A DNA stretch of 64,000 nucleotides from Algisphaera agarilytica (lineage in GTDB: Bacteria > Planctomycetota > Phycisphaerae > Phycisphaerales > Phycisphaeraceae). This document shows, piece by piece, positions 12,444 through 63,425 of this stretch (position 1 is its first letter; every line of letters begins with the position of its first letter). The notes beneath the pieces were generated by a model. The model was not told the origin of the DNA and searched no databases. It saw only the letters and a list, made by a program, of their open reading frames with translations. The DNA lies in assembly GCF_014207595.1 (NCBI RefSeq), contig NZ_JACHGY010000001.1:2300836-2364835 (forward strand). Reading direction: 5' to 3'. The translations under genes and the position numbers were made by a program.

Positions 12444-13070
12444 TCAATAGGTCCGCACGACCCCGATGCAGGTTCCTTGAATTTGGACTTCTTCGGGTTG
12501 GCAGTAGCGGGGTTCGTATTTGTCGTTGGCGGGTTGGAGGCGGATGCGGCCGTCTTTTTCGCGGTAGAGTTTTTTGAGGGTGGCTTCGCCGGTGTCGAGG
12601 AGGGCGACGACGGTTTCGCCGTTGCGGGCGGCGTTTCGTTTTTCGCAGATGACGAAGTCGCCGTCGCGGATGTGTTCGTCGATCATGGAGTCACCGCGGA
12701 CTTTGAGGACGAAGGTGTTGCCGCCGACGGTGCCGCGGGGCGGGGCGAAGATCTCGGCGAGGTCGAGGTGCTCGCGGTCTTCGATGGCGTCGATGGGGGA
12801 GCCGGCGGCGATGGAGCCGACCAGGGGGAGCTTGGTGTTGGAGGTTTCGTCGGGGAGGTCCAGGTCAGGCGACACTTCCAAAGAGCGGGCTTTGTTGGCC
12901 TGCCGTTTGAGGGCTCCTTTTTTGATCAGCGCTTCGACGTGTTCGAAGACGGTGACCTTGGAGACGCCCAGCTCGTCGGCGAGTTCCTGCATCGTCGGCG
13001 AATAGCCGCGGGTCAAGCGGGTTTCGCGGATGCGGTTGAGGATTTTGAGCTGTTTGGGCGTGAGGTTCAT
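12444..13070 (-). CDS. lexA: LexA repressor
   Basis: A 208-residue protein with GGAGAG seven bases before the ATG. The winged helix is at 1-65 (MNLTPKQLKILNRI, SPTMQELADELGVSKVTVFEHV). The self-cleavage bond is Ala-Gly in VGSIAAGSPID near residue 92; the catalytic Ser is in GDSMID and the Lys in GEATLKKLY. LexA represses SOS genes and is cleaved on RecA-filament contact. The start codon lies inside the frame of the repeat-bearing gene upstream, suggesting cotranscription. A palindrome at 13947-13968 in the upstream region is a possible operator. Confidence 0.95.
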   Translation of the reverse strand: MNLTPKQLKILNRIRETRLTRGYSPTMQELADELGVSKVTVFEHVEALIKKGALKRQANKARSLEVSPDLDLPDETSNTKLPLVGSIAAGSPIDAIEDREHLDLAEIFAPPRGTVGGNTFVLKVRGDSMIDEHIRDGDFVICEKRNAARNGETVVALLDTGEATLKKLYREKDGRIRLQPANDKYEPRYCQPEEVQIQGTCIGVVRTY

Positions 13071-13734
13071 TGGGGTCTCTCCGGGTGGGTGAGGTCTGGG
13101 GGGTGAGGGGTTGGGGGTTGGGGGATGAGGTGTTGGGGATCCGGGGCTTTGTCGCGTTGCTCCTCAGCCCTCGGCTTGGGGTGGGGGCGAGGGCGGGGGC
13201 GTCGACGAAGTCGACGGGGACGGGGGTGATGGCGATGCGCGGGGCGGGTTGTTGGGCGCGGAGCTTGGCTTTGGCGGCGCGGAGGGCTCGGACGAAGGCG
13301 GGTTGTTGGGGTTGGTCGGGGGTGAGGGTTTTGGGTTGGGGGATCCGGGGCTTTGTCGCGTTGCTCCGCAGCCCTTGGCTTGGGTTGGGGGTGGGGGTGG
13401 GGAGGGCGGCGGCGAGTTGGTGGTGGGTCTGGGCGAGGTCGCTTAGGGTGAGGGATTGGAGTTGGAGCCAGGCGGCGGCGGCGTGGAGGGGGGCGGTGAG
13501 GTTGAAGGTGTCGGACTCGCGGTGGGGACGCGATGAATCGCGTCGCTTCGTGGGGGAGAATTTGCCGCGGTTGAAGGTTTGGCGGTGGTAGCCGAAGTGG
13601 TTGGGGGCCTGGTCGGGGTCGGGGTTGGTGGAGGTGTTGCCCTGAGGTCCCTTGGTCTTGATCAGACGGGTGCCTTTGACGTTGAGGCGGGTGGCGTAGT
13701 CGCCGGAGCCGAGCATGACGAGGGGGGTGGGCAT
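12865..13734 (-). CDS. Hypothetical protein upstream of lexA carrying three in-frame repeat insertions
   Basis: The frame opens at MPTPLVMLGSGDYATRLNVK, almost every codon down to about 13480 ends in C or G, so it is really coding. No stop occurs before lexA, so the frame runs 206 bases into lexA; the last 68 residues look like a lexA shadow and the true C-terminus may have been lost. Three inserts are visible: TKRRDSSRPH from the palindrome at 13527-13544, and GLRSNATKPRIP twice from 31-base elements at 13344-13374 and 13140-13170. The remainder is Pro/Ala/Gln-rich. No family is recognised. Being upstream of lexA in the same direction, it may be SOS-controlled. Confidence 0.55.
   Translation of the reverse strand: MPTPLVMLGSGDYATRLNVKGTRLIKTKGPQGNTSTNPDPDQAPNHFGYHRQTFNRGKFSPTKRRDSSRPHRESDTFNLTAPLHAAAAWLQLQSLTLSDLAQTHHQLAAALPTPTPNPSQGLRSNATKPRIPQPKTLTPDQPQQPAFVRALRAAKAKLRAQQPAPRIAITPVPVDFVDAPALAPTPSRGLRSNATKPRIPNTSSPNPQPLTPQTSPTRRDPNEPHAQTAQNPQPHPRNPLDPRLFADDAGTRRRAGRLQGHRLRTRRSADQKRSPQTAGQQSPLFGSVA
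13140..13170 (-). repeat. Coding element P2 (GLRSNATKPR), copy 1
   Basis: A 31-base element, GGGCTGCGGAG or variant, four variable bases, GCGACAAAGCCCCGGA (minus strand). It differs from the copy at 13344-13374 by one base (GAGGAGC for GCGGAGC) and is read in the same frame. Confidence 0.8.
13344..13374 (-). repeat. Coding element P2 (GLRSNATKPR), copy 2
   Basis: The same 31-base element, on the minus strand, in frame in the gene upstream of lexA. It shares 27 of 31 bases with the mnmA copy at 62706-62736. Confidence 0.8.
13527..13544. repeat. Palindrome family P3, copy inside coding sequence
   Basis: GACGCGAT-GA-ATCGCGTC, followed by GCTTCGTG. It encodes the RRDSSR part of the gene upstream of lexA. 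The second copy is at 13797-13814. Confidence 0.75.
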
Positions 13735-13796: not shown

Positions 13797-13814
13797 GACG
13801 CGATGAATCGCGTC
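13797..13814. repeat. Palindrome family P3, intergenic copy
   Basis: GACGCGATGAATCGCGTC followed by GCTTTGTG, matching 13527-13552 except for one base in the flank. Confidence 0.75.
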
Positions 13815-13946
13815 GCTTTGTGTGGCCTGCCCCTTGATTGTGGGATGAACATTGTGTTGCCCCAAGATGTTGGGGTCGGGGTGTTCTTGGCCGCTTTAGT
13901 CTTCGACGGTCGGGGGTTGGCTCCTTGAGGGAAAAAGCGAAAATCT

Positions 13947-13968: not shown

Positions 13969-14216
13969 GGGTTCCAGACGTCAAGGATTGGTTCAAGGTT
14001 TTTTAAAAGCGGGGGTTAGGGCGTTTGTTTGGGAAATGAGCGGTTATACAGGGGGGGTGGGGGTTATGGGACTTGGGTGCGATTGGGGGGTGGGAGTGGG
14101 GTTATTGGGACATGGCGGTTCGGCTTTGTCTTGGCGTTGGGGTGGGGGTGCGATTGTGGGGGGGGTGCATGCGGGCTGAAGCCCGCACGCCGGGAGGGGG
14201 TGCACGGGTTAGTTGG

Positions 14217-14247
14217 AACCCGCCGAAGCTGCGCATCGGCGGGCTTT
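14217..14247 (+). repeat. Palindromic family P1, intergenic copy before pheS
   Basis: AACCCGCCGA, loop AGCTGCGCA, TCGGCGGGCTTT. It ends 24 bases before the pheS start. The same arms and GGGCTTT tail recur inside pheS. Confidence 0.75.
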
Positions 14248-14271: not shown

Positions 14272-15324
14272 ATGTTGACGAAGATTGATGAATTGACGGC
14301 GGCGGCGACGGCGGACCTCGAGGCGGTGGGGGACGCGGAGGCGCTGGAGGCGTTCCGGATCAAGTACCTGGGCTCGAAGGGGGCGGTCAAGGGGCTGATG
14401 GGGCTGATTAAGGATGTGCCCGGGCCGGACAAGCGGGAGTTTGGGCAGAAGGCGAACGCGGCGCGGGCGGCGGTGGAAGAGGCGTTTAAGGCGAAGTCGG
14501 AGGCGTTGGGGGGCGGCTCGGGTGGGGGTAACCGCGCCGCAGCTTCGCAGCGGCGGGCTTTGGTGGATGTGACGCAGCCCGCGGCGGGGGCGGTCTTGGG
14601 GCGTCGGCATGTGATTGCGCAGACGATCGAAGAATTGGTCGAGGTGTTTGGGCGGATGGGGTTTGATGTGGAGACGGGGCCGGAGGTTGAGGATGACTAT
14701 CACAACTTTGTGGCGCTGAATATTCCCGAGACGCATCCGGCGCGGGACCCGTTGGATAACTTTTATTTGAAGAAGGGAGCCGCATCGCAGCTTCGCAGCG
14801 ATGGGCTTTCGGAGTCGCCGGCGTTGATGCGGTCGCAGACGTCGACGGTGCAGATCCGGGTGATGGAGAACGTGAAGCCGCCGGTGCGGATCATTTCGAC
14901 CGGGCGGGTGTATCGGCCGGACGAACACGACGCGACGCACTCTTCGATGTTCCACCAGATCGAAGGGCTCTACGTCGACAAGAACGTGAGCATGGTGGAC
15001 CTCAAGACCACGCTGATCCAGTTCGCCAAGGCGTACTGGGGCGAGGACGCGGAGGTGAAGCTGGTGCCGAGCTACTTCCCGTTCACTGAGCCGAGTGCCG
15101 AGCTGTACGTCAAGATCGACCTGGGCAAGGGCCTGGAGTGGATGGAGGTCGGCGGGTGCGGCATGGTCGACCCGGCGGTGTTCGAGCATGTGGGCTACGA
15201 CCCGGAAGAATGGACCGGCTTTGCGTTCGGCCTGGGTATCGAACGGCTGGCCATGCGCAAGCACAACATCGCGGATATCCGCTGGCTGTATGAAGGCGAT
15301 GTGCGGTTCCTGCGGCAGTTCTGA
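14272..15324 (+). CDS. pheS: Phenylalanine-tRNA ligase alpha subunit with two in-frame repeat insertions
   Basis: A 350-residue protein starting MLTKIDELTAAATADLEAVG; the longer frame to 14029 translates repeats. Class II motifs are visible: VFGRMGFDVETGPEVEDDYHNFVALN, the motif-2 region RVYRPDEHDATHSSMFHQIEG (quoted by key residues R, H, H, F, Q, E) and the motif-3 end FAFGLGIERLAMRKHNIADIR. It charges tRNA-Phe together with PheT, which is not in the window. Two stretches are foreign to the family: RAAASQRRAL (about 88-97) and GAASQLRSDGLSE (about 169-181), both encoded by P1 palindromes. They lie in loops before the catalytic motifs. Confidence 0.95.
   Translation: MLTKIDELTAAATADLEAVGDAEALEAFRIKYLGSKGAVKGLMGLIKDVPGPDKREFGQKANAARAAVEEAFKAKSEALGGGSGGGNRAAASQRRALVDVTQPAAGAVLGRRHVIAQTIEELVEVFGRMGFDVETGPEVEDDYHNFVALNIPETHPARDPLDNFYLKKGAASQLRSDGLSESPALMRSQTSTVQIRVMENVKPPVRIISTGRVYRPDEHDATHSSMFHQIEGLYVDKNVSMVDLKTTLIQFAKAYWGEDAEVKLVPSYFPFTEPSAELYVKIDLGKGLEWMEVGGCGMVDPAVFEHVGYDPEEWTGFAFGLGIERLAMRKHNIADIRWLYEGDVRFLRQF
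14530..14561 (+). repeat. Palindromic family P1 inserted in pheS, copy 1
   Basis: CGCCGC arm, AGCTTCGCA loop, GCGGCG arm, GGGCTTT tail. It is in frame and lengthens the PheS linker after the N-terminal coiled coil. Confidence 0.75.
14779..14809 (+). repeat. Palindromic family P1 inserted in pheS, copy 2
   Basis: CATCGC arm, the identical AGCTTCGCA loop, GCGATG arm and GGGCTTT tail, in frame between FYLKK and the LMRSQTSTVQIR segment that normally follows within a few residues. Confidence 0.75.
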
Positions 15325-62216: not shown

Positions 62217-63425
62217 ATGCCCAAGAACGGTAAAAAAGTGCTCGTTGCCATGTCCGGCGGCGTCGATTCGTCCGTGGTCGCGGCCCTGCTCCAACAGGAG
62301 GGGTACGAGGTCGTGGGCTGCTTCATGCGCCTGGGCAGCGACGATTCGATCGAAGCGGCCGACGGCTACGACAACATGGCTCCGTGCCCTGTCCCCGGTG
62401 ATACGGGCGGGGGGGACATTGCGTTACCGCAAGTCAAAAAACACAAGCAGGGCTGCTGCTCGGTGAACGACGCGGGAGACGCCCGCCACGTCGCCGCGAT
62501 CCTGGGCATCCCGTTCTACGTGATGAACTTCAAGAAGGACTTCGGCCGGATCATCGACTACTTCGTCGATGAGTACAACGCCGGGCGGACGCCCAACCCC
62601 TGCGTCCGCTGCAACGACTGGCTGAAGTTCGGCAAGCTGCACCAATACGCCAAGAGCATCGACTGCGATTACGTCGCCAGCGGCCACTACGCCCGCATCA
62701 GCCGTGGGCTGCGGAGTGGAGCGACAAAGCCCCGGACCGGCGAAGCGTCTGGTGCCCGCCTGCTCCGCGGCGTCGACCGCTCCAAAGACCAGTCCTACGT
62801 CCTCTTCGGCAGCCCGCGCGACCGCCTCGACCACATGCTCCTGCCCATCGGCGAGATGCAGAAATCCGAGGTCCGCCAGATCGCCGACGACCTGGACCTG
62901 CCGGTGTTCAACAAGCCCGACAGCCAGGAGATATGCTTCGTCCCCGACAACGACTACGCCAAGCTCGTCGAGCGCCGCACCGAGGGCGGCTTCGACACCG
63001 GCGATATCCTCGACACCGACGGCAACGTGCTCGGCCAACACGACGGCCAGCAGCACTTCACCCTCGGCCAGCGCCGCGGCATCGGCGTCGCCGTGGGCAA
63101 GCCGATCTACGTCGTCGACAAAGACCCCGCCACCAACACCGTCACCGTCGGCGGCAAGGACGACCTGCTCGCCGTGGGCTGTACCGCGAGCCAGACCAAC
63201 TGGCTCATCGACCCCAGCGACGTCCCGACCGACTGGCGCGACTGCGAGGTAAAGGTCCGCTACAACTCCCCGCCCACCCCCGGCCGGGTCCGCGTCACCG
63301 GCGACGATGCCCTCGAAGTCGCCTTCACCGACCCGGTCAGCGCCGTCACCCCCGGCCAGGCCGTGGTCTGCTACGACGGCGACACCGTCCTCGGCGGGGG
63401 CTGGATCGATGCGGTCCAAAAATAG
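62217..63425 (+). CDS. mnmA: tRNA-specific 2-thiouridylase with two inserted segments
   Basis: A 402-residue MnmA. PP-loop VLVAMSGGVDSSVVAALL, catalytic Cys pair in NPCVRCNDWLKFG and DSQEICFVPDNDY, DVGHYAR-type DYVASGHYARI, KDQSYVLF, and LGQRRGIGV are present. It thiolates U34 in Lys, Glu and Gln tRNAs. Two stretches are extra: about residues 43-80 (GSDDSIEAADGYDNMAPCPV onward) before GCCSVNDAGDARHV, and about residues 164-180 (GLRSGATKPRTGEASGA), which is the P2 repeat read in frame. The second sits in a surface loop after the GHYARI strand. Confidence 0.95.
   Translation: MPKNGKKVLVAMSGGVDSSVVAALLQQEGYEVVGCFMRLGSDDSIEAADGYDNMAPCPVPGDTGGGDIALPQVKKHKQGCCSVNDAGDARHVAAILGIPFYVMNFKKDFGRIIDYFVDEYNAGRTPNPCVRCNDWLKFGKLHQYAKSIDCDYVASGHYARISRGLRSGATKPRTGEASGARLLRGVDRSKDQSYVLFGSPRDRLDHMLLPIGEMQKSEVRQIADDLDLPVFNKPDSQEICFVPDNDYAKLVERRTEGGFDTGDILDTDGNVLGQHDGQQHFTLGQRRGIGVAVGKPIYVVDKDPATNTVTVGGKDDLLAVGCTASQTNWLIDPSDVPTDWRDCEVKVRYNSPPTPGRVRVTGDDALEVAFTDPVSAVTPGQAVVCYDGDTVLGGGWIDAVQK
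62706..62736 (+). repeat. Coding element P2 inserted in mnmA
   Basis: GGGCTGCGGAGT, GGA, GCGACAAAGCCCCGGA, a 31-base element that shares 27 of 31 bases with 13344-13374 and is read in the same frame, giving GLRSGATKPR. Confidence 0.85.

Follow-up and report, generated by a model that had tools for sequence, protein, structure and literature searches.

In this study, a short palindromic element was found interspersed in the genome of Algisphaera agarilytica (designated G000, 4.17 Mb), where most copies lie inside genes, all of these on the sense strand and most in one reading frame. The copies share a conserved hairpin, represent lineage-specific insertions, and show a bias in the composition of their targets. 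The element is likely a REP-sized, non-autonomous mobile hairpin, probably moved in trans by an enzyme of the HUH/Y1 type, with sense-frame copies presumably being tolerated as loop linkers and copies in most other frames being purged.

The window, a 64,000-nt stretch of contig NZ_JACHGY010000001.1, was scanned for the 31-base sequence recognized in the first-pass annotation, and exactly three matches with ≤3 mismatches were obtained (0.00 expected from shuffles). Their positions and strands agreed with that annotation, and so did their identities, 30/31 between the two neighbouring copies and 27/31 between the copy at 13344 and the one in mnmA. Alignment of the copies showed that the true repeat unit is 39 nt (AAGCCGAGGGCTGCGGAGCNNNGCGACAAAGCCCCGGAT) and not 31, with flanks that are unrelated from site to site. 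One copy (62699..62737, plus strand; covariance-model match with an E-value of 1.8e-8, such values being rough owing to a short calibration) lies in frame +1 (SRGLRSGATKPR) in mnmA, the tRNA 2-thiouridylase gene (62217..63425, plus strand; Pfam PF03054/PF20259/PF20258). The other two (13343..13381 and 13139..13177, minus strand; both recovered by the scan and by the covariance model) are also in frame +1 (SQGLRSNATKPR and SRGLRSNATKPR, respectively) and are carried by a hypothetical ORF upstream of lexA (12865..13734, minus strand), the second copy being near its 3′ end. This ORF was called on codon bias and overlaps the start of lexA (12444-13070, minus strand); its codon scores were 58.5 and 24.6 over the first 220 codons and -44 in the lexA overlap, and a Pfam search with it gave no match. 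Local codon scores in frame +1 were positive on both flanks of copy 13343..13381 (25.6 and 26.3), and those around copy 13139..13177 were +23.9 upstream and -7.8 downstream. The in-frame reading of each of the three is SxGLRSxATKPR. Translation in the same frame in two unrelated genes had been proposed for them; the frame was indeed observed, but the second gene is only a hypothetical ORF.

The first-pass annotation would have been refuted by a lack of further copies in the genome or by the presence of the residues in MnmA of all relatives, and neither was the case. The pattern had 26 matches in the host genome at ≤3 mismatches, whereas its reversed version, used as a control, had 0, and a covariance model detected 42 copies. 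These fell into size classes of 33, 39, 45 and 48 nt, plus a single intergenic copy of 44 nt, and the weaker covariance-model matches were size variants with unchanged ends. The size variants encode KPRAERSEAPD (33 nt) and the peptides of the 45-nt and 48-nt classes (KPRAAEPLPGGDKAPD). The element core (GAGGAGCNNNGCGACGAAG) may resemble a widespread proteobacterial repeat. No match to the exact pattern was present in the GTDB genome contigs scanned, among which close relatives are perhaps not represented; the element was likewise not detected in viral contigs, nor in plasmids by tblastn with its peptide as the query.

The conserved ends of the element, AAGCCG...CCGGAT, pair to form a stem, CCG(A)GGGCT / AGCCCCGG, with one base bulged. 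An internal loop separates it from a small apical stem, GC-NNN-GC (apical hairpin GAGC-NNN-GCGA), and the length of the apical hairpin differs between the size classes. Four genomes contributed 45 distinct 39-nt copies to a covariation test. Standard pairs filled 94.4% of the pair cells, and 23 pair cells showed changes on both sides, compared with 4.1 in shuffles; when the pairing partner was slid by one column, pairing fell to 44-46%. This covariation indicates that the hairpin, as DNA or RNA, has been maintained through divergence. As in REP-like hairpins, the element is thus an imperfect palindrome within 20-50 nt with a covarying structure; the stem feet, however, are AAG and AT(C) in the alignments, and an unpaired GTAG or CGTC is absent from either foot. 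The stem supplies short inverted ends, and no target duplication was visible in the flanks.

Genes were called on the stretches around every copy with a codon model trained on the 64-kb window. By these calls, 31 of the 42 copies in G000 are inside genes, spread over 23 genes, and all 31 are sense-oriented, with 26 in frame 0, 3 in frame +1 and 2 in frame +2. Frame 0 reads KPRA...APD, its dominant product being KPRAAERSDKAPD. GLRSNATKPR, formerly regarded as the product of the element, belongs to a minority frame, +1, which is used by 3 of the 31 genic copies (the MnmA copy and both copies near lexA); the frame +2 copies are in an FGE-like protein and a DUF5718 protein. Hosts included HisB, HisC (two copies), DnaX, RbfA, PdxH, an E2 acyltransferase, TopA, ValS, MurA, MnmA, KorA, TsaD, Smc (two copies), a Ser/Thr kinase and an ankyrin protein, and a 1045-aa LptC/OstA-like ORF carried six copies, all in the main frame (L126, G000:C1:1413500-1420500). 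Pfam was applied to seven proteins and supplied the names MnmA, ValS, MurA, HisB, TsaD and DUF5718; the remaining names come from sequence reading, and the frames in genes without a family match from the codon-model gene caller alone.

Under a null in which possible targets were weighted by the flank preference of the intergenic copies, the excess of the main sense frame had P=8e-15, and 31/31 sense had P=6e-7. Counting each of the 23 genes once gave 6.5e-11 for the main frame and 2.3e-5 for the strand; these per-gene figures are safer because the copies are not fully independent. Peptides of the main sense frame had a KD of -2.0 with 54% charged residues, and those of the antisense frames were hydrophobic to neutral (KD +0.5, +0.8 and -0.1). 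The variable apical loop is unable to form a stop codon in the main frame.

Insertion sites were aligned with orthologues from the same-genus genomes G001 and G002, both incomplete, and the same-family genomes G005 and G015. At 12 of 12 aligned sites in 10 genes (MnmA, TsaD, HisB, ValS, MurA, HisC at two sites, PdxH, TopA, KorA, and Smc at two sites), the insert was absent from the orthologues, the evidence being weaker for TsaD and one Smc site, where relatives hold other variable residues. The sites are mostly loops that are length-variable among relatives as well. The remark that MnmA otherwise has no such residues was borne out, as they were present in 0 of 71 parsed homologues and were missing from the same-genus MnmA; the solved E. 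coli enzyme (2der) shows a 12-residue gap where the insert sits. AlphaFold places the insert of the host MnmA in a coil that joins strands 159-162 and 181-184, with pLDDT of about 65 at residues 161-180 and ≥95 on either side. The insertion flanks are C-rich at -2, -1 and +1. Uninterrupted TopA and KorA orthologues already have APD at the position of the element's terminal GCCCCGGAT, a coincidence in the protein alignments that may point to target matching or microhomology.

When 51 genomes of the family were searched with the covariance model, 33 copies were found in G015, 21 in G024 and 14 in G008; three other genomes had ≤2 copies each, and none was detected in the two incomplete same-genus genomes. 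Only two further genomes with any copy were found in a phylum sample of 392. Genes of the relatives were called with the codon model trained on G000. By these calls G015 had 24 sense genic copies: 19 read in the main frame, and five, each 38 nt long, were shifted in such a way that the core AEE..DEA stays in frame. Another copy at a gene edge was coding-like, and two genic copies were antisense (SpoU-like and GspF-like). The copies of G015 occupy genes or sites differing from those of G000, and the genic sites of G000 that were examined are empty in G015, indicating a separate origin of both sets. Intergenic copies made up 19/21 in G024 and 7 of the 10 examined in G008.

Y1/RAYT genes are present in G000, G015, G024 and G008. 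Since Y1 genes occur in 46 of the 51 family genomes, their presence or absence is uninformative for the element. In 43 locus records (some overlapping) from G000 and its relatives, no Y1/RAYT gene had the element on its flanks, and the RAYTs examined adjoin other palindromes. The only significant hit, a candidate neighbour of a RAYT in G008 (L259), turned out to lie in frame within an aconitase gene, and the adjacent RAYT has its own palindromes. Inverted pairs of the element were found in intergenic clusters of G000 (2407980/2408038 and 2408677/2408733). At this locus (L124, G000:C1:2406500-2410300), the two pairs (39 nt + 45 nt) are about 600 nt apart and BIME-like, and a small CsrA-like ORF is located just past the second pair.

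Other repeats were observed in the same genomes. A second palindromic family (CCGCNNCGCAGCTTCGCAGCGNNGGGCTTT) was located in the window at 14532-14561 and 14780-14809 (plus strand) and also at 14213-14247; the palindrome is twice in frame in pheS, in two frames (RAAASQRRAL and ASQLRSDGLS), and the family has 11 genome copies, two of which are antisense in other genes. A third palindrome (GCGACGCGATTCATCGCGTC) occurs at 13527-13546 and 13797-13816 (minus strand), in a stretch shared with the hairpin element. A near-identical sequence adjoins a Y1 transposase in G015 (L253:1903-1924), and GCGACGCGATTCATCGCGTC may therefore be a RAYT-linked REP. The palindromes AAAAAGGTTCCAGGAACCTTTTT and AAAGGGGAGCCTCCCCTTT flank RAYT genes of G008 (L258, L260) and seem to constitute separate RAYT-linked REP families. 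Additionally, a tandem repeat of the TCCGAAA type is read in frame as STSEIRN(P/Q)KSEIV in TsaD (L013) and MurA (L019) of G000.

Several explanations of the hairpin element were weighed. Chance similarity or an assembly artefact has practically no likelihood, given the 0 control matches in the genome, the flanks that differ at every site, and the occurrence of related elements in three genera whose genomes were assembled separately. That it is an ordinary REP moved by a resident RAYT, with incidental genic copies, is possible, if somewhat doubtful: the REP-like size, the bulged stem, the intergenic inverted pairs and the Y1 genes of the four genomes agree with this, but none of the checked Y1 loci was flanked by the element and the stem foot carries no GTAG or CGTC tag. 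Moreover, the genic share was 58/75 in G000 and G015 versus 5/31 in G024 and G008 (Fisher 7e-9), and this contrast indicates a more than incidental residence in genes for the former two.

The extreme sense and frame bias, and the hydrophilic core that is in frame even in the 38-nt variants of G015, could also be explained if the element were retained because its peptide, or its hairpin in mRNA, has a function, such as pausing translation or tagging the protein. Such a function appears quite improbable, however, with hosts that are unrelated, same-genus orthologues that have no insert, a patchy distribution, and copies in other frames (the MnmA, FGE-like and DUF5718 proteins) and in intergenic DNA. 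It is also very unlikely that the bias stems from insertion preference for C-rich targets on the coding strand instead of selection. Although the flanks are C-rich and target weighting alone yields 63% sense, the main frame would then be expected in 19% of the copies (target-weighted) versus 84% observed; the two antisense genic copies in G015 show that insertion is possible in both orientations, and the pheS-type palindromes of the same genome, which provide an internal contrast, are 2 sense, 2 antisense and 7 intergenic.

For the preferred reading, a mobile hairpin sifted by selection, the following course is proposed. Copies would land at C-rich targets within and between genes, moving as single-stranded hairpins through an enzyme acting in trans, probably a transposase of the HUH/Y1 type that processes single-strand hairpins. 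Genic copies with a length of 3n and the sense frame KPRA...APD would be retained, tolerated inside genes because this frame encodes a benign loop peptide, a highly charged, proline-bounded linker of 11-16 residues placed in surface loops that vary. Purifying selection would remove copies read in antisense and in most other frames, whose stretches are more hydrophobic, as the frame and strand bias suggests. Selection alone may not be the entire cause of so strict a bias. A selfish hairpin adapted to genes as its usual habitat, with a disordered charged linker, a stop-free loop (CNN NGC codons), genic sizes in steps of three and possibly insertion coupled to the coding strand, is conceivable but rather unlikely.

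Many conserved genes that are unrelated to one another carry in-frame insertions of Rickettsia palindromic elements (RPEs), at solvent-exposed places (PMC10969869, PMC3767692). A likeness to RPEs had been suggested from the window, and it holds in that the element is an interspersed palindrome read through in unrelated genes, as are RPE-1 to RPE-3 (also RPE-4/6/7) and the Wolbachia palindromic elements, the comparison being by described in-frame behaviour and length. The RPE unit, however, is about 100-150 bp, and at 33-48 nt the planctomycete element is outside this length; it also differs in its planctomycete host and in keeping, almost without exception, to one frame of the sense strand. 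Among RPEs, insertions at orthologous positions are often common to several species, whereas 0 were shared among the sites checked here. Di Nocera et al. (2013) described GTAG/CGTC-tagged intragenic REPs in several phyla, with Opitutus terrae holding many of them; REP families have also been described in Planctomycetes (PMC3733652). The former are likewise REP-sized hairpins read within genes, including tRNA-related and DNA-repair genes, but more than half of their genic inserts are dimers or groups, unlike the single units of the planctomycete element (PMC3733652), which also has neither a GTAG or CGTC foot nor, in the loci searched, a flanked RAYT. The earlier statement that no such element had been described is therefore too broad as to kind (PMC3733652), but a literature description of the planctomycete element itself was not found. 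Bacterial MITEs with ORFs (ERIC/RU-1, Correia and YPAL) are small and non-autonomous, with in-frame fusion possible (PMC2229807); they are about 100-200 bp and in several cases have TIR/TSD, whereas no TSD was visible in the flanks of our element.

The element resembles the RAYT-mobilised REP/REPIN sequences in being a short bulged hairpin, interspersed, with some inverted pairs. REPs usually exceed 100 copies, whereas there are about 40 here, mostly genic in G000 and G015, and a linked transposase was not found. Based on its length, the missing GTAG/CGTC tag and the lack of a flanked RAYT in the loci searched, the element does not class with RPE-1 to RPE-3, the tagged REPs or the RAYT-REPs. 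Its sequence and size, the group of its hosts and how strictly it keeps to strand and frame are new with respect to RPEs and intragenic REPs.

Protein-coding palindromes have hitherto been known chiefly from Rickettsiales, in which tolerance could be ascribed to obligate intracellular life and small populations. The planctomycete described here has a 4.2-Mb genome, and a single kind of element occupies about 23 of its genes, many of them housekeeping genes. The insertions provide dozens of natural examples of 11-16 residues added in tolerated loops of core enzymes, and masking REP-like repeats as non-coding in such genomes is unwise. With a related genus that has a separate genic set and two genera with mostly intergenic copies, the family offers a test of element adaptation to coding sequence.
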